Source: a virus
Length of the DNA: 22,529 nt
Virus record (IMG/VR): IMGVR_UViG_3300022602_000462
Coordinates: 1 to 22,529 of that record
Reading direction: 5' to 3' (one strand)
Shown: positions 3,749 through 17,242 of the stretch, one piece after another
Layout of the letters: each line of letters begins with the position of its first letter
Position numbering within the stretch: the first letter of the stretch is position 1
Position numbers and translations under genes: made by a program
The notes under the pieces: model-generated
The model's input: the letters and a program-made list of their open reading frames with translations, nothing else
Told to the model about the DNA's origin: nothing
Databases searched by the model: none

Positions 3749-5188
3749 TTATTGCGCATACGGATTAACAAACTTTTTATTGTGGTCATCTGCGTACGAA
3801 TAGTCCCTTGGTGGCAGGTAGTCTAATTGAATCCAGCCTGAGTCACGAAGGACTCGTAGCGCTTGTGATAATGAATCCACATAGTCATCATGTCCGCCTG
3901 CTTCTGGGAATGAACACACTTGACGCAAGAAACGTTTTGCCCAGTCTGCAAACTCACCAGGACGTTGTGGATCTTCTGGTATCCAGATCTTGCCTTTTGC
4001 AACTAGTGGTGCTACAATGTTCAAGCGTTGAACTTTATCAGCGCGGCCTGGATTGTATCCACGAACTTCGATACCAGATCCTTGGAGCTCTTGAATGAGG
4101 GAGATACCTGCTGACTTATCTTCCATCAATACGAGATCGGCTTTCCTTCCTTTCCCGAAATCGTTATCAGCTCCATAGACAACTTCTTTGAAGTCATCGA
4201 TGACTTTACGTCGGAGTTCTGGATAAGCTAGGTGTCCGTCCCAAGCATCAAGTAATATCACTGCGGTGCCTGCATCTTCTTGTTCAAAGATTCCCCAGAT
4301 GGTACATGCTGTCGGATCGTTCATTGTCTTTTCAGATGTGGCTGGATCGTATGATGCAATCACATATTCTAAGTTAGGCGTGGGTTTGTTAGCAGGCCAC
4401 ATACGGAATTGTTTACGCTTGATGATACCTGCTTGCTCAGGATCTAAGATTTCACCATAAATTTCTTGGCGACCAATGTCAGTGCCATCGTAAGTCTCTA
4501 ACTGTTTGAAGAACGTTTGAGATAGATTCTCTTTGTTGTCGTACGATGATGCGTTGACCACATAAACATCGCCACCCACTTTACCTTCGTTAAGATCAAC
4601 GATAAGCTCTTTAGGTTTTGGCGTTGTGGTAATAATCTGTTGTACACGAGGAATGCGTGGATCTTTAAGACGCAATGTAAACTGAACGCCATCGTATGCA
4701 TCGTCTAAGTATTCAAACGCACATAACTCGTCGAACCAAGCGCCATGGAATTGTTTACCTCGATAACGTTCTGGTTCGGATGCTGGGATACCTTGGATCA
4801 AAGATCCATTGGTCAAAGTAATCTCAAAGAGTGATTTGTTATAATCTTTGATGAGTGATGGCGGTATGATGTTAAGAAGACCTGAGTCCCCTTCGAAACA
4901 TGTTGCGCGAATATCATTAGACGTTGGTGCTGTGACTAACCAACGTGTGTTGTTAAACTTCCATGCACGAATACCAATCCAGTGTGATGCCGTGTGAGTT
5001 TTACCTGATCCTCGACCTGCCAACATAAGGAACGTATCATACTCGCCATCGTCTGGTTCACGTTGGTGAGGTAGCGCTTGCATTTGCCAACGAACTTGCC
5101 ATAGGGCAGCTTCTAGTTGTTGCTTTGGCCAGTGGCGGTTCTTTTCCGCAAACTGTTTTAATATGGCTTCTTGTTTTGGGTTTAGCAT
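3749..5188 (-). CDS. Terminase large subunit (packaging ATPase/nuclease)
   Basis: This 479-residue protein cuts and pumps phage DNA into the prohead. The ATPase half has Walker A GRGSGKT (residues 58-64), Walker B WFDE (151-154) and the coupling motif TTTP (187-190). The RNase H-like nuclease half has its acidic residues in ASYDP (D281), LMEDKS (E356) and GGHDDYVD (D434/D435). Length and order fit a complete enzyme. Its ATG lies inside the last codons of the upstream Hint gene (shared ATGCTAA), so the two are translationally coupled. Transcription is leftward towards the portal. Confidence 0.95.
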   Translation of the reverse strand: MLNPKQEAILKQFAEKNRHWPKQQLEAALWQVRWQMQALPHQREPDDGEYDTFLMLAGRGSGKTHTASHWIGIRAWKFNNTRWLVTAPTSNDIRATCFEGDSGLLNIIPPSLIKDYNKSLFEITLTNGSLIQGIPASEPERYRGKQFHGAWFDELCAFEYLDDAYDGVQFTLRLKDPRIPRVQQIITTTPKPKELIVDLNEGKVGGDVYVVNASSYDNKENLSQTFFKQLETYDGTDIGRQEIYGEILDPEQAGIIKRKQFRMWPANKPTPNLEYVIASYDPATSEKTMNDPTACTIWGIFEQEDAGTAVILLDAWDGHLAYPELRRKVIDDFKEVVYGADNDFGKGRKADLVLMEDKSAGISLIQELQGSGIEVRGYNPGRADKVQRLNIVAPLVAKGKIWIPEDPQRPGEFADWAKRFLRQVCSFPEAGGHDDYVDSLSQALRVLRDSGWIQLDYLPPRDYSYADDHNKKFVNPYAQ

Positions 5189-6177
5189 GCCTGTATAAAT
5201 CCTTCGCCGACTAAGATTGAGTTATCTTCATCGTGCGTTTCAATATGAACACACATCTGAGATTGAATAGGTTGGATGTCTTTGATGTAGCGTCTACCAT
5301 AATGAACTTTGACCGGTGGCGAGATCTGATGTTCCATAATGCGTGACTTAGTTCTGAAGAAGATTGTGTAGTCCTTCTTAAAGTCATCTGACGTGACGCT
5401 TGATTTATTTCCAAGAGATTCTACCAGTCCTTGAATTTGTTTAACGGTCCCGTAATGCTTGGACGAAAATCTAAACAAATCACGTGCGGGTGAATATTGT
5501 CTTGATTTAGAATGCATGATGCCTGATAGCAGATTAAGTCTCTCTTCAACCGAGCCTAATAAATAACTGTCAGGTATTTCTCTTGGGATGTTGGGGGCCA
5601 GTTGTGATTCTATGGTAGGCGATACTGTAAAGTAACGCTCACCATTGTCTCCATGTTTACCCTCGGTGATCTTGTATCCGGCGTTCTTAAATTGGTCGTG
5701 GATATATTTTGCTAGTCTAGGTGGTGGCAGTAATTTGTTTTTATTATTTCGATTAAAGAACCAGAACCCAAAGATAAAAGATGGGACGGATAAATACTGG
5801 TGGGGTAATTCTATGGGCTGAGTTGTGGGGATAGAATAGGCCGATCTATTTCTCTTATCCTTGAGTGATAAATTTTTAAGATGGTCTATTTTAGTAAATC
5901 GTAACGGACGTCTGAATCTTTTTTGGATGCCCTTGTACTCATCCAAGCGCTTACGATATTTTCTATCTTCTATTAGGAAGCCTAAATGTTTGTCACCTGC
6001 TATGGTGAGGTAGTCGTCAAACATAATCTCGTAGCAATCTTCTGAGAAGTATTGCTGGACCAATTTGATTTGGGTCAACTTACCATCCTTATTGAAAACA
6101 TAGTCGCCTTCTTTTAATTTGGAGGCTGGTTTCCAATAGTCGTAGGTTAACACTTTTTGAGTTGCTAGTATTGCCAT
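5182..6177 (-). CDS. Free-standing intein-like Hint protein with degenerate LAGLIDADG domain
   Basis: This 331-residue protein looks like an intein without exteins. Residues 7-31 match intein block A (TQKVLTYDYWKP, LKEGDYVF, KDG). Residues 49-68 match block B, with T58 and the GDKH stretch (61-64). The C-terminal 24 residues (from CVHIETHDEDNS to ILVGEGFIQAC) match blocks F and G. The middle resembles a LAGLIDADG endonuclease (LLSGIMHSK, FRFSSKHYGTV, LVESLGNKSSV), but the catalytic Asp positions are not Asp. The chain starts MAILATQ, so the nucleophile at intein position 1 is absent, and the usual terminal His-Asn is Gln-Ala before a final Cys. Splicing is therefore doubtful; a degenerate or repurposed Hint is likely. 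Its final codons overlap the terminase start. Confidence 0.75.
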   Translation of the reverse strand: MAILATQKVLTYDYWKPASKLKEGDYVFNKDGKLTQIKLVQQYFSEDCYEIMFDDYLTIAGDKHLGFLIEDRKYRKRLDEYKGIQKRFRRPLRFTKIDHLKNLSLKDKRNRSAYSIPTTQPIELPHQYLSVPSFIFGFWFFNRNNKNKLLPPPRLAKYIHDQFKNAGYKITEGKHGDNGERYFTVSPTIESQLAPNIPREIPDSYLLGSVEERLNLLSGIMHSKSRQYSPARDLFRFSSKHYGTVKQIQGLVESLGNKSSVTSDDFKKDYTIFFRTKSRIMEHQISPPVKVHYGRRYIKDIQPIQSQMCVHIETHDEDNSILVGEGFIQAC

Positions 6178-6255: not shown

Positions 6256-6330
6256 TTATTTGTTCATCACGTACATAGTTACTTCAAAGCCAAAACGCAT
6301 TTCAGTAGCTGCTGGTTTAGTCCAAGCCAT
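6256..6330 (-). CDS. pqqA: PqqA, precursor peptide of pyrroloquinoline quinone
   Basis: This 24-residue peptide begins with MAWTKPAATEM and continues RFGFEVTMYVMNK. It carries the PqqA hallmark: Glu16 and Tyr20 in E-V-T-M-Y, the two residues that PqqE cross-links and that become the PQQ skeleton. The flanking WTKPA, the R.GFEVTMY core and the 22-24 residue length also fit beta- and gamma-proteobacterial PqqA. A perfect ribosome site (AGGAG, 6 bases before ATG), two promoter-like motifs upstream (6376-6386, 6431-6461) and a terminator downstream show an intact expressed unit. PqqB, C, D and E are absent here, so the peptide would have to be processed by host enzymes. PQQ serves periplasmic methanol and other quinoprotein dehydrogenases. 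Identification is by motif alone but the match is hard to explain otherwise. Confidence 0.9.
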   Translation of the reverse strand: MAWTKPAATEMRFGFEVTMYVMNK

Positions 6331-6352
6331 GTTGTTCTCCTTTTTAGATCAA

Positions 6353-6461: not shown

Positions 6462-6502
6462 GGAATTGTTTTTATATATCACTTTTTCCAATTTAATTGT
6501 TT

Positions 6503-6784
6503 GTAAGTCATTGATTTCATTCAGTTTGTCAGGGTACAAAATTTGTAAGTCATTGATTATAAAGGATTGTTACAATTTAGAAACAATTTTGTGTCAGGGT
6601 ACGACCTCTGTAACCCATTGATTTTAAACACATTGTCACAGTAGTACCAGTAGTTTACACTTTTTTTCTTTTTTTTTAAAAAAATAAAATAAAAAGATAG
6701 AGACAAAAGTGAAATAAAGGGGTACTACTAGTACTACTATGACAATCTGTTTAGAATCAATAACTTACAAAGGTCATTTTTGCC
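6503..6784. repeat. Left copy of a 282-bp inverted repeat
   Basis: This stretch matches the reverse complement of 13027-13310 almost end to end. A block of about 46 bases is identical (6561-6606 against the reverse of 13205-13250), and the rest differs by scattered substitutions and one- or two-base gaps. It contains two TGTCAGGGTAC sites (6527-6537, 6592-6602), several GTAAGT-CATTGATT units and GTAGTAC/GTACTAC units. Its second half is itself a near palindrome around an A/T-rich centre (about 6660-6720): the arm at 6610-6653 returns inverted at 6724-6770. No gene is supported inside it. Confidence 0.9.
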
Positions 6785-7025: not shown

Positions 7026-7066
7026 AGGCGTCCACATACCCCTACTGCCAGTGTGGGTATTTGCCT
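7026..7066. repeat. Hairpin repeat, copy 1
   Basis: ATACCC (7036-7041) pairs with GGGTAT (7055-7060), and an outer AGGC/GCCT pair encloses it. The loop holds CTACTGCCAGTGT, shared with copy 2. Confidence 0.65.
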
Positions 7067-7081
7067 AACATACTTTGATGC

Positions 7082-7135
7082 GCCGGTCAAGTAGCTAATA
7101 CCCCTACTGCCAGTGTGGTTATTAGGAGGGCTGGC
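7082..7135. repeat. Hairpin repeat, copy 2
   Basis: CTAATACC (7095-7102) pairs with GGTTATTAG (7117-7125) with one bulge. An outer stem GCCGGTC (7082-7088) with GGCTGGC (7129-7135) adds seven pairs, two of them G-T. The loop is nearly identical to copy 1 and the right arm to copy 3. Confidence 0.65.
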
Positions 7136-7197
7136 ATGATTCTTGCTAGGCCTTCGGCCACACAACCACATTAGGTCGCCGCCGTCAAGCCGTTTCG

Positions 7198-7224
7198 AAT
7201 ACCCATGATAGCAGTGTGGTTATT
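7198..7224. repeat. Hairpin repeat, copy 3
   Basis: AATACC (7198-7203) pairs with GGTTATT (7218-7224). The loop (CATGATAGCAGTGT) differs from the other copies, but AGTGTGGTTATTAGG is shared with copy 2. An outer CGCC/GGCG pairing is possible. Confidence 0.55.
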
Positions 7225-7485
7225 AGGTAGCGTGGCGAGTAGCAAGAATCGTGCCAAGCTCATAGACATCACTGCAACGCGCTACAACGCACGATTGAAT
7301 TTCGTAGCCATGATGGTATTAAGTAGGGCACGATCGTTTGCCTATGACGCAAACAGGTGGGTTGGCGCGTCCTATGCGCGTGCGAGGGTGAGAGGTGGGG
7401 TGGCGCGGGATAGTGATCAATTTGGGTGGGACTGCGCCCCCAATAAATATGTTGACACCAATTAAAAGATCAACGACAATTCACT

Positions 7486-11787: not shown

Positions 11788-11976
11788 ATGAGTAAATTTT
11801 CAGTCCAACGCCGTTATGTCATCACGGATCTATTTGAAGAACCCATTCGCGCATTCTACACAAAGGATGAAGCGCTTCCATACCTCACACCACAAACAAA
11901 ACTTATCGTATTACCTAAGCAACTATCCGGTTATAAACTAGCAATCACACTTGTGAAAGGGGAAGCAACATTTTGA
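11788..11976 (+). CDS. Hypothetical protein (62 aa) before sigma-like gene
   Basis: This encodes 62 residues, basic, probably beta-rich (RRYVITDLFEEPIRAFYT, TKLIVLPKQLSGYKLAITLV). No family is recognised. There is no clear ribosome site, and a strong hairpin lies 16 bases upstream, so its translation may be regulated. Its TGA overlaps the TTG start of the sigma-like gene (TTGA), so the sigma-like protein is probably coupled to it. Confidence 0.65.
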   Translation: MSKFSVQRRYVITDLFEEPIRAFYTKDEALPYLTPQTKLIVLPKQLSGYKLAITLVKGEATF

Positions 11977-12545
11977 ATGACACTACAGACACGCTCACAG
12001 AATACTTACAATCACTCTACGGCATCGATATTTTGCCACTGAGCGAAGAGCACGCGCTCGCTAAAAGAATCGCTACAGGCGACCAAGAAGCCCTCGAAAA
12101 ACTCATCCGGCACAACTTAAGGTTCGTGGTATACGTCGTTCGTAAAATGACGGCGTGGGGCTACGGCAAAATGCCGGTGGAGGATCTTTTGGCGATGGGT
12201 AACGAGCAACTACTTATCGCCGGACGCAGATGGACACCGACCAATAACGCGCGCTTTGCGACCTACGCTCGATCATTCATAGAAAAGGGCGTGCGCCGTG
12301 AGCTCGATAACACTGCCAACATCATACGACTGCCGGTCAACATCATGGAGTCGATCAAAAAGATGAACTACACCGAGAAGACACTCACGCAGAAGCTAGG
12401 TCGTAAGCCGAAAGAATCAGAGCTCGCAACTGAGCTCAACATCGAGGAAGATCGCGTCCGGCAACTGCAAGGTTACCTGTCGAGAGAGCCGGTGTCACTC
12501 GATCACATCAACGAAGAAAAATTTTTGGAGGAATCAGATGAGTAA
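11973..12545 (+). CDS. Sigma-70-like factor lacking region 4
   Basis: This 190-residue protein reads through sigma regions 1.2 to 3. Region 1.2 is about 7-35 (LPLSEEHALAKRIATGD), region 2.1 about 40-62 (EALEKLIRHNLRFVVYV), regions 2.3-2.4 about 93-123 (RFATYARSFIEKGVRREL then IIRLPVNI), and region 3 about 125-170 (KLGRKPKESELATELNIEED). It ends soon after EPVSLD, where a normal sigma factor would go on to region 4, the part that binds the -35 box. It should direct host polymerase to -10-type elements. The start is TTG at 11973, with GGGGA nearby and coupling to the previous gene. A region 4-like domain is encoded separately at 21019-21342. Confidence 0.85.
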   Translation: MNDTTDTLTEYLQSLYGIDILPLSEEHALAKRIATGDQEALEKLIRHNLRFVVYVVRKMTAWGYGKMPVEDLLAMGNEQLLIAGRRWTPTNNARFATYARSFIEKGVRRELDNTANIIRLPVNIMESIKKMNYTEKTLTQKLGRKPKESELATELNIEEDRVRQLQGYLSREPVSLDHINEEKFLEESDE

Positions 12546-14052: not shown

Positions 14053-16368
14053 ATGGAAAACACCACTACAAAACCAAACAGCCTGTCAGTCCAATTTGAC
14101 AAGATACCACTCGACCTCAAAAAAGTACCAAGGTGGGTACTCTGGCGTTTAGTCGAGGTGGGTGACCCTCCGCGATGGAGCAAACTGCCAATGCAGATCA
14201 ATGGTCAGTCAGCCTCATCAACCAACCCATCATCATGGACAGACTTTAACTCAGTCCAGTATGAGTACCAAGCCAACCCAACAAAATGGGACGGCGTGGG
14301 TTTCGTGTTTTCTGACGCAGACAACTTGGTAGGCATAGACCTAGACGACTGCTTAGATCCAACCACACATCAATTCACCAACCCAGCATCAGAACAAATT
14401 GCTCTGCGACTCAACGGGTACATGGAAGTGTCGCCCTCTGGCACGGGCGTTAAGATATTCACACGCGGCAACTTTTCCAACGCACACGTAGACCACTCGA
14501 TTGGTTTGGAAGTTTATGCCAAAGCGCGGTATTTTACTGTGACAGGTCATTACATCTCAGGCACGATCCCAACAGAAGAACAAGACCTAACATCCATCAT
14601 ACCACCGCGTCAGTTTAACAAGACTGGCGACGCGTTCGCGGACTACACGCCGCCGCTCGAAGGGTACGACATCCACCGAGTCGAGACAGAGATCCTGTCA
14701 CAACTTGATCCGGACTGTCACTACGCAGAGTGGCTCAAGATAGGCGCGATACTGCACCACCAATTCCAAGGTGACATCGAGGCGTGTGAGATGTGGGACA
14801 GATGGTCGGCACAGTCGCACAAGTACCAATCGACCGGCATCAACTCATGCGAATCGAAGTGGAGAACGTTTAAGGGTTCGGGCGCCACGCTCCGGTCCTT
14901 ACTCTTCAACATCACGCAAAAGGTGAAAGCACAAGCGCTCGCCAGTGGTGAGACCATACTTGATAATAACACCATGGAGAACGCGCGTGTGTTCCTAGAC
15001 AACTTCTACGCCAGTGAAGAAGGTTACAAGTTAGTACACTACGCGGACGATTTTTATGTACACGTCGGCACGCACTACGAAGACATAGAAGAACAAACGA
15101 TCAGGGCTAAGCTCTACACCTTCCTGGACAAGTGTAAGAAGATGGGCAAGAAGAACGTCATCATGCCGTTCAACCCAACACCTGCCGTGGTGTCGGCCGT
15201 ATTGGACGCGGTGAAGTCGATCGTGCACCTACCCAACCATCCCAACACTAAACCGCCGATCTGGTTTGAACAGTATCGCGCAAACAAACCGCAGGCGTCC
15301 AAATTAGTATCACTACAGAACGGGTTGTTTCACCTAGAACAGAACGTGCTGATACCACACTCGCTAGGATTCTTTACACAGAATGCGTTAGCGTTTAATT
15401 ACGACAAGGATGCAGAGTGTCCAGTGTGGCATTCATTTTTGAAATCATTATGGGAGAAAGACCATGAGTCAATCGAAACCCTGCAAGAGATGTTTGGTTA
15501 CATCTTATCGGGCGATACAAGGCAACAGAAATTCTTTAACATCATCGGACCGCGTAGATCTGGCAAAGGCACTATCAATAAAGTGTTGGTATCACTCCTT
15601 GGTCAGCATAATACAGTCGCGCCTGAACTGGGTGAACTGTGTGACACTTTTGGGCTACAGCCTTGGCTCGGTAAACTTCTTGCTTCCTTCACTGATGCCA
15701 GAGCTCCCGAACGCAATCGCAATGCTGTTGTATCTCAACTCCTTCGTATTGTTGGTGGCGATACAGTCACTGTTAACAGAAAGAACAAGGAGTCATGGAA
15801 TGGATATCTTCCTACACGAATTGTCATCTACTCAAACGAGGTCTTACAACTCACGGAAAACTCGAACGCGCTTACAGGACGTATGATCGTATTAAGAATG
15901 ACAGAATCATTCTACGACCATGAGGATACAGAACTATCACACAAGCTTGAAGCTGAACTGTCAGGTATCTTTAACTGGGCGATGGAGGGATTGAAGCGTA
16001 GACTTGCACGTGGAGGTCACTTCTTACAACCTAAGTCAGGCGCATCATATTTAGAACTGATGGAAGAGATCGGCAATCCAATCGGATCATTCGTTGAAGA
16101 GACACTCATATTTGATCCAGAAGCAACTGTATCTAAGGATGATGTGTTTGCATGCTACTCACACTGGGCGTTGAAGAGGAAACTTAGCCCAGGATCAGAG
16201 CTCGCATTTAAGCGTAGATTCTTGGCAGCAACTCAAGAGCATCGTATTGAGATTGGCCTCGATAGATCCAACAACTCACGCAATCATATTTACAGGGGCG
16301 TACGACTTAATGATAGAGCTCAAACGCATGTTAACAATAATGTTATATCAAACGGAGATGTATACTAA
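14053..16368 (+). CDS. Primase-polymerase/SF3 helicase, NrS-1 and P4-alpha-like
   Basis: This 771-residue protein is the main replication enzyme of the phage. The N-terminal archaeo-eukaryotic-type primase has GIDLDD (D96, D98), SPSGTGVKIFTRG and GLEVYAKARYFTVTGH. Residues about 205-285 match the PriCT-2 linker (LDPDCHYAEWLKIGAILHH). The SF3/D5 helicase has Walker A GPRRSGKG (499-506), Walker B LLASFTDAR (D548) and the sensor YSNE (593-596). This layout occurs in the NrS-1 phage primase-polymerase and, with a different primase, in P4 alpha, which is 777 residues and binds repeated sites at two origins. A promoter-like motif precedes it. No separate DNA polymerase is visible in the window. Confidence 0.9.
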   Translation: MENTTTKPNSLSVQFDKIPLDLKKVPRWVLWRLVEVGDPPRWSKLPMQINGQSASSTNPSSWTDFNSVQYEYQANPTKWDGVGFVFSDADNLVGIDLDDCLDPTTHQFTNPASEQIALRLNGYMEVSPSGTGVKIFTRGNFSNAHVDHSIGLEVYAKARYFTVTGHYISGTIPTEEQDLTSIIPPRQFNKTGDAFADYTPPLEGYDIHRVETEILSQLDPDCHYAEWLKIGAILHHQFQGDIEACEMWDRWSAQSHKYQSTGINSCESKWRTFKGSGATLRSLLFNITQKVKAQALASGETILDNNTMENARVFLDNFYASEEGYKLVHYADDFYVHVGTHYEDIEEQTIRAKLYTFLDKCKKMGKKNVIMPFNPTPAVVSAVLDAVKSIVHLPNHPNTKPPIWFEQYRANKPQASKLVSLQNGLFHLEQNVLIPHSLGFFTQNALAFNYDKDAECPVWHSFLKSLWEKDHESIETLQEMFGYILSGDTRQQKFFNIIGPRRSGKGTINKVLVSLLGQHNTVAPELGELCDTFGLQPWLGKLLASFTDARAPERNRNAVVSQLLRIVGGDTVTVNRKNKESWNGYLPTRIVIYSNEVLQLTENSNALTGRMIVLRMTESFYDHEDTELSHKLEAELSGIFNWAMEGLKRRLARGGHFLQPKSGASYLELMEEIGNPIGSFVEETLIFDPEATVSKDDVFACYSHWALKRKLSPGSELAFKRRFLAATQEHRIEIGLDRSNNSRNHIYRGVRLNDRAQTHVNNNVISNGDVY

Positions 16369-16745
16369 TGTGGAACAATTTAGCAGAATTTAAAAAGTGG
16401 TGGCTTGATCTAAGACATTTAAGACCGCCATTCAAAGATCCTATCCATGTCACTGAAACTATGTACGAAATGGTTTTATATAAGGAAGGGCGTTATCAAG
16501 TACGTTTGTGCATTTGTAAAGCTAACTCTGAAAATAAAATAAGACTAATTGATGGTGCAGAACAAATCTTAATTTATATATCAGGCAACTTAACATTTAA
16601 CGATGACATATCAGCACTTCAAAAAGCATCACCCGATGGAACGTTCCATCAACTATTAGGCATGGAGATTAAACCTCCGCACGATAAAGTCATAGCTAAG
16701 GATGAGGCAGGCACGTTTATCATCTTTGAGAAACTTGGAGAATAA
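16368..16745 (+). CDS. Cupin-like protein, paralogue 1, metal ligands lost
   Basis: This encodes 125 residues clearly related to the next gene: both begin with W-N-x-x-x-E-F-x-x-W-W-L, then R-P-P-F-K-D, then an LYKEGRYQVRL-like strand. Where paralogue 2 has MHSHPDVDSSFIYLGG, this one has RLIDGAEQILIYISGN, so the His-x-His of a cupin metal site is gone. A PPH remains near residue 105. It is probably a cupin-fold protein without metal-based activity. It is coupled to the primase gene by TAATG. Confidence 0.7.
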   Translation: MWNNLAEFKKWWLDLRHLRPPFKDPIHVTETMYEMVLYKEGRYQVRLCICKANSENKIRLIDGAEQILIYISGNLTFNDDISALQKASPDGTFHQLLGMEIKPPHDKVIAKDEAGTFIIFEKLGE

Positions 16746-16747
16746 CA

Positions 16748-17242
16748 ATGAACTGGAATAGCGTAGAAGAATTTCAAAACTGGTGGCTGACCAACGGCAA
16801 GCCTATTCGTCCACCATTTAAAGACGCCGCATTTACCACAGACATAGCGTACTCACTATGCTTATTCCGTGAGGGTAAATTTCAGGTAGAACTTTATATC
16901 TCAAAACCAAACACACAAGCGCCCATGCACTCACACCCAGATGTAGACTCGAGCTTTATCTACCTCGGCGGCAACCATGAGTTTGGCGAACCCGATGGAT
17001 CATTCAGAGATCTAAAAGATTACCAAAAAGAAAATCCAGAGAACGGTGCGCATATCTTATTAGGCACAACATTGTTAGCGTTATCTGCAACTCCACATCG
17101 ATTAAGAGTAGGCCCCGAAGGTGGCTCATTCTTGAGCTTTGAAATGTGGCGTGAAGATAAGCCAACATCGGTGACAGTACACTGGGACGGTGAACCTGTC
17201 GGTGAACAACACATTGAAACAATGAATAAACATCATGCTTGA
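16748..17242 (+). CDS. Cupin-like protein, paralogue 2, intact metal site
   Basis: This encodes 164 residues with a cupin-type metal motif in MHSHPDVDSSFIYLGG, which has two His and a later Asp, and a matching histidine in ATPHRLRVGPEGG. The double-stranded beta helix is followed by a tail (FEMWREDKPTSVTVHW). It arose with the previous gene by tandem duplication; they are separated by two bases. GGAG lies before the ATG. The substrate is unknown; the setting among 2OG-Fe(II) oxygenases suggests a role in modification chemistry. Confidence 0.7.
   Translation: MNWNSVEEFQNWWLTNGKPIRPPFKDAAFTTDIAYSLCLFREGKFQVELYISKPNTQAPMHSHPDVDSSFIYLGGNHEFGEPDGSFRDLKDYQKENPENGAHILLGTTLLALSATPHRLRVGPEGGSFLSFEMWREDKPTSVTVHWDGEPVGEQHIETMNKHHA

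Follow-up and report, generated by a model that had tools for sequence, protein, structure and literature searches.

A 24-codon pqqA gene, encoding the precursor peptide of PQQ, in a tailed phage and in Methylophilales phages

Methanol-oxidation genes in phages were previously known only from rare T4-like phages of Lake Baikal. In one of them, the T4-like Methylophilaceae phage VP_266, PqqA together with methanol dehydrogenase was reported by Coutinho et al. 2020 (PMC7678222), who also stated that phage P19250A encodes none of those genes. Papers on cultured Methylophilales phages report no such genes; viral pqqA is unmentioned in the main texts of those on Venkman, MEP301, MEP401/402, Melnitz, and MG-MTP1, and the main text of a survey of viral methane metabolism (PMC10904782) has no viral pqqA. 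Virus-encoded pqqA, pqqD, and pqqE have also been listed from metagenomic contigs of reservoir sediments (PMC13188868, 2026), but they were read as phosphate-solubilising genes, without a link to methylotroph phages. The Methylophilales (OM43, Methylopumilus) oxidise methanol and are abundant in oceans and lakes alike. We find a 24-codon pqqA in all nine Methylophilales phage records that our search recovered, which contradicts the picture of a rare trait. Phage pqqA as such is already known (once, 2020), and its breadth across Methylophilales phages appears to be the new part.

The gene discussed here lies in a virus record of 22,529 bases, which was analysed over its whole length and is referred to as the window. 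The features that the discussion needs are the following (all on the minus strand).

6256-6330, minus strand: pqqA, encoding the 24-residue PQQ precursor peptide MAWTKPAATEMRFGFEVTMYVMNK; above the curated cut-offs of PF08042 and TIGR02107; dN 0.035 and dS 0.48 in its clade
6331-6350, minus strand: ribosome-binding site region GATCTAAAAAGGAGAACAAC, from the sequence, directly upstream of the ATG; identical in relatives L252-L254
6207-6233, minus strand: terminator-like hairpin with a T-run, GGAAAGGGGCTTAAAACGTCCCTTTCT-TTTTT, 22 bases past the pqqA stop
5182-6177, minus strand: intein-like (Hint-type) protein; matched in PHROG by terminase profiles; conserved in every relative inspected
3749-5188, minus strand: terminase large subunit (TerL; PF03237, PF17289), the query used for fetching relatives

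The pqqA reading frame runs from the ATG at 6330-6328 through 24 codons to the TAA stop at 6258-6256, and the plus-strand frame over the same bases is unrelated. The peptide scores 42.8 bits against the Pfam profile PF08042 (curated cut-off 21.1, E = 4.9e-11, model positions 1-19 of 19) and 40.2 bits against the NCBIfam profile TIGR02107 (cut-off 20, E = 2e-10, model positions 1-21 of 21); it is also the single PqqA match in a six-frame search of the window (E = 9.9e-12). The Glu-x-x-x-Tyr pair is present as E16 and Y20. Upstream, a Shine-Dalgarno sequence (AGGAGA) stands at good spacing to the start codon, AAAAAGGAGAACAAC-ATG, and downstream the hairpin recurs 3' of pqqA in relatives L242-L247 and L252; a promoter and terminator scan of the window was overall not above its shuffles. 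The first-pass annotation had placed a pqqA gene at exactly these coordinates, leaving the strand unstated, and its proposals of PqqA identity, a ribosome site, and a terminator of its own hold. Two results that it named as refuting, a missing profile match and loss of the key Glu and Tyr, did not occur; both residues are kept in every relative examined. PHROGs has no family matching the phage peptide, which in part explains why phage annotation misses the gene, and no other pqq genes were found around it. A chance open reading frame is ruled out by the profile scores and dN/dS. Host contamination is likewise ruled out, both for the window, where the terL, portal, and primase genes flank pqqA, and for the cultured phages discussed below, which are complete genomes. 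With its PqqA identity and the selection on it established, pqqA is, as judged from sequence, a working stand-alone gene that would presumably bring a physiological benefit.

The window belongs to a tailed phage with a terminase, a 954-residue portal, a D5-type primase, and a helicase, to which are added two 2OG-Fe(II) oxygenases, an ArdC-like protein, and a sigma-factor-like protein. On the minus strand the order is pqqA, the free-standing intein-like protein, terL, and portal, with the replication genes on the opposite strand. The intein-like protein, located between pqqA and terL and overlapping terL, presumably owes its PHROG terminase matches to intein parts of those profiles; it is context, outside the function of pqqA.

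How pqqA is distributed and conserved was addressed with 80 relatives fetched by terminase rather than by pqqA, which makes for an unbiased conservation test. A degenerate DNA pattern was also used to find pqqA loci, but this pattern fixes RFGFEVTMY; hence, conservation inside that motif is not counted and the terminase-fetched set is used instead. There, pqqA occurs in 16 of the 80 relatives, on the same strand and 1.1-1.5 kb ahead of terL, and all of these bearers keep the Glu and the Tyr. Presence of pqqA follows the terminase tree among the TerL relatives of this phage, needing 2 changes where shuffled data need 14.7 on average. The 11 distinct DNA versions in the clade of this phage give a mean dN of 0.035 and dS of 0.48, and the comparison across lineages gives 0.10 and 1.2 (22 codons per gene in both cases). 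The ribosome sites are kept in the relatives. The window TerL shares 99% identity with that of L241, but its pqqA cassette (MAWTKPA... with the ribosome site) matches L252, whose TerL is 92% identical; this suggests, on sequence comparison, that the cassette is exchanged between relatives.

Relatives without pqqA carry something else at the same place. Among the 50 with readable flanks, 49 have a different conserved open reading frame of 101-109 residues in the pqqA slot (L319:4744-5049, L258:4744-5049, L267:4768-5076, and 46 further loci; motif Y.YQIQGALE...APLGRWLDQWVLENFYGN). It is found in none of the 15 pqqA-bearing relatives tested, so that the two are mutually exclusive, and one relative, L249, has neither. 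The slot frame has no match in Pfam, PHROG, or the phage records. Mean GC is 0.40 in the pqqA-bearing contigs versus 0.46 in the others. We read the position as a putative host-tuned cargo slot.

The distribution beyond these relatives was followed by tblastn of the PqqA peptide against 50,697 phage records, which matched 12. Nine of them are Methylophilales phages: Venkman, P19250A, MEP301, MEP401, MEP402, and four Melnitz isolates. The published negative for P19250A is hereby corrected, as it does encode pqqA (28085-28150, minus strand). "All" refers here to the Methylophilales phages that the search found, and Venkman EXVC038S, MEP431-434, phiMB624-A, HIM624-A, MG-MTP1, and RSA-MFP1 are not among them. 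The tenth record is a podovirus from Manatee Spring (spring water), related to Venkman, and the remaining two bear the label Acinetobacter phage. The one examined, Acinetobacter phage MD-2021a (L327, GenBank CAKLQF020000010), was rejected as a phage carrier, being mislabelled bacterial DNA in which a pqqA-pqqBCDE operon stands with ppk and further chromosomal genes. In plasmids, this peptide query reaches PqqA of below 60% identity; the restriction to methylotroph phages is therefore not merely a matter of sensitivity. In the five records of Venkman, P19250A, MEP301, MEP401, and MEP402, no feature is annotated over the gene; for Melnitz and the podovirus, the annotation has an antisense reading frame covering it.

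The carriers fall into six groups (the window; Venkman and the podovirus; P19250A; MEP301; MEP401/402; Melnitz). Portal similarity between them is absent, and TerL gives a single match at 19.5% (Melnitz/Venkman). The position of pqqA differs in each group; in Melnitz it adjoins a tRNA gene. Moreover, the pattern scan of viral contigs returned at least 120 stretches with pqqA, and among the matches listed, 91 share two or more proteins with a cultured methylophage, the podovirus, or this phage. That the gene travels alone, as the first-pass annotation had it, also applies more widely: pqqB-E matches were found in 0 of 200 viral loci versus 34 of 119 host loci in the fetched stretches. A PQQ alcohol dehydrogenase is also encoded in 1 of the 30 viral records tested. 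One 72 kb viral record (L036, G594) holds pqqA and a PQQ-dependent alcohol dehydrogenase, as in the reported Baikal phage. The present phage resembles VP_266 in its phage-borne pqqA, its predicted methylotroph host, and the proposed rise of PQQ for methanol oxidation. In VP_266, however, a phage methanol dehydrogenase accompanies pqqA and a single T4-like population is concerned, whereas here the gene is stand-alone and the phage unrelated. On balance we favour, with some reserve, the view that stand-alone pqqA is a near-universal trait of Methylophilales phages that was acquired repeatedly and independently; it would represent a class of auxiliary genes that supply a consumed precursor peptide instead of an enzyme, and whose cargo slot is taken by another gene in relatives that infect other hosts.

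On the host side, pqqA was found in 149 of 150 Methylophilaceae genomes and in at least two copies in 141 (mean 4.2, median 4, maximum 12); genomes of about 1 Mb are among them. Between 3 and 12 copies have been described, versus typically single copies of the remaining pqq genes (PMC4109929). Precursor supply therefore looks amplified in the Methylophilaceae, and the phages add one more copy. The host peptides are near-identical to that of the phage, e.g., MWTKPAATEMRFGFEVTMYVMNK, and the host copies are dispersed; host genomes differ in also holding pqqB-E, while in the window copy an additional Ala follows Met1 and the gene sits ahead of packaging genes. A methylotroph host, suggested earlier from the gene alone, agrees with the finding that all nine pqqA-bearing phage records with a known host are Methylophilales phages. 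As pqqA itself points to it, this phage probably infects methanol-eating bacteria. A search with the window TerL gave only partial matches of 32-35% in 187 Methylophilaceae genomes, with no close relative there or among the cultured phages, and the TerL of a pqqA-lacking relative matched nothing close in 398 genomes of another family. These searches thus yield no independent host assignment for the phage or for its relatives lacking pqqA.

In PQQ synthesis, PqqE together with PqqD cross-links the Glu and Tyr of PqqA, and PqqF/G, PqqB, and PqqC complete the cofactor (PMC10906245). We hold it to be quite probable that phage pqqA replenishes the consumed precursor peptide for the host PqqB-E during infection. 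The gene would be translated into PqqA upon infection, host PqqD/PqqE would cross-link the phage peptide at Glu16 and Tyr20, and PqqF/G, PqqB, and PqqC of the host would finish PQQ for the host methanol dehydrogenase; higher or sustained PQQ might then benefit the phage. Only PqqA would need new translation after the phage has taken over, because it is the sole member of the pathway that is consumed, one peptide per PQQ, and the enzymes can persist. Cyanophage psbA follows a similar logic. It encodes the photosystem II protein D1 and replaces a fast-turnover protein, such that the phage supplies the component used fastest and the host keeps the remaining machinery. The two differ in that D1 is a subunit and PqqA a precursor destroyed to make the cofactor, and they share no sequence relation. 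The profile matches, the key residues, the expression signals, the purifying selection, the lack of other pqq genes, the restriction to Methylophilales among phages of known host, and the occurrence in unrelated lineages all argue for this role, as do the agreement of pqqA presence with the terminase tree and the amplification of the gene in the hosts. Moreover, added PqqA is converted to PQQ in a cell-free setting, at 70-80%, according to work cited in PMC9851590. The same paper also cites a limited rise in PQQ only upon overexpression of pqqABCDE in Methylovorus, which counts against it. The need for a phage pqqA is not proven, because the host already has several copies, and extra synthesis may matter little, because PQQ may outlast the infection cycle.

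The low dN against dS bears on the idea that a fragment with host pqqA was captured by chance and is carried without effect. Such a capture would be easy, since the gene is tiny and cheap and each host genome offers several copies, and the apparent exchange of the cassette between relatives is in line with it. A passenger of this kind is possible, but it fits poorly with the low dN/dS and with carriage by six unrelated lineages, and the retained ribosome sites and the tie between presence and clade also speak against it; we give it a small chance.

The conserved cross-linking pair, in turn, makes it unlikely that the peptide acts as a decoy or regulator, titrating PqqD/PqqE or otherwise lowering or redirecting host PQQ synthesis. 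A stand-alone substrate peptide in excess could occupy PqqD. However, a decoy is expected to lose its reactive residues, and here both of them and the whole motif are kept in a peptide nearly identical to host PqqA; the cell extract cited in PMC9851590 converts added PqqA to PQQ. We consider such a function very improbable. Least probable of all is a role of pqqA as a stretch common to phage and host at which recombination or integration takes place, like that of tRNA genes: the Melnitz copy does lie beside a tRNA gene, but the genes are complete reading frames with ribosome sites, their many synonymous differences spoil the homology yet keep the peptide, and none of the ten window proteins scanned gave an integrase-like match.

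Existing phage-host pairs (Venkman or Melnitz on Methylophilales sp. H5P1, P19250A on IMCC19250) allow a clean test of whether cofactor supply, and with it methanol oxidation, is sustained by viruses in infection; the medium published for H5P1 includes 1 nM PQQ (PMC9004378). For viral contigs that lack an assignment, the gene may also double as a cheap marker of the host. These data further illustrate how functional phage genes escape gene calling that applies a minimum length.

Some other parts of the window deserve mention. The region separating pqqA from the divergent gene block contains, at 6485-6771, four copies of a repeat of the type TTTGTAAGTCATTGATT, three of them direct and one inverted; this is a possible control region. 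Three 39-nt direct repeats of the type AATACCCCTACTGCCAGTGTGGTTATTAGG follow at 7035-7236, with a 17-nt inverted pair nearby. The neighbouring proteins encoded at 16368-16745 and 16748-17242 resemble tandem paralogues, with ...F..WW... at the start of each and RPPFKD in common. Finally, the protein encoded at 11973-12545 has sigma-70 regions 2 and 3 and is probably a phage sigma factor.
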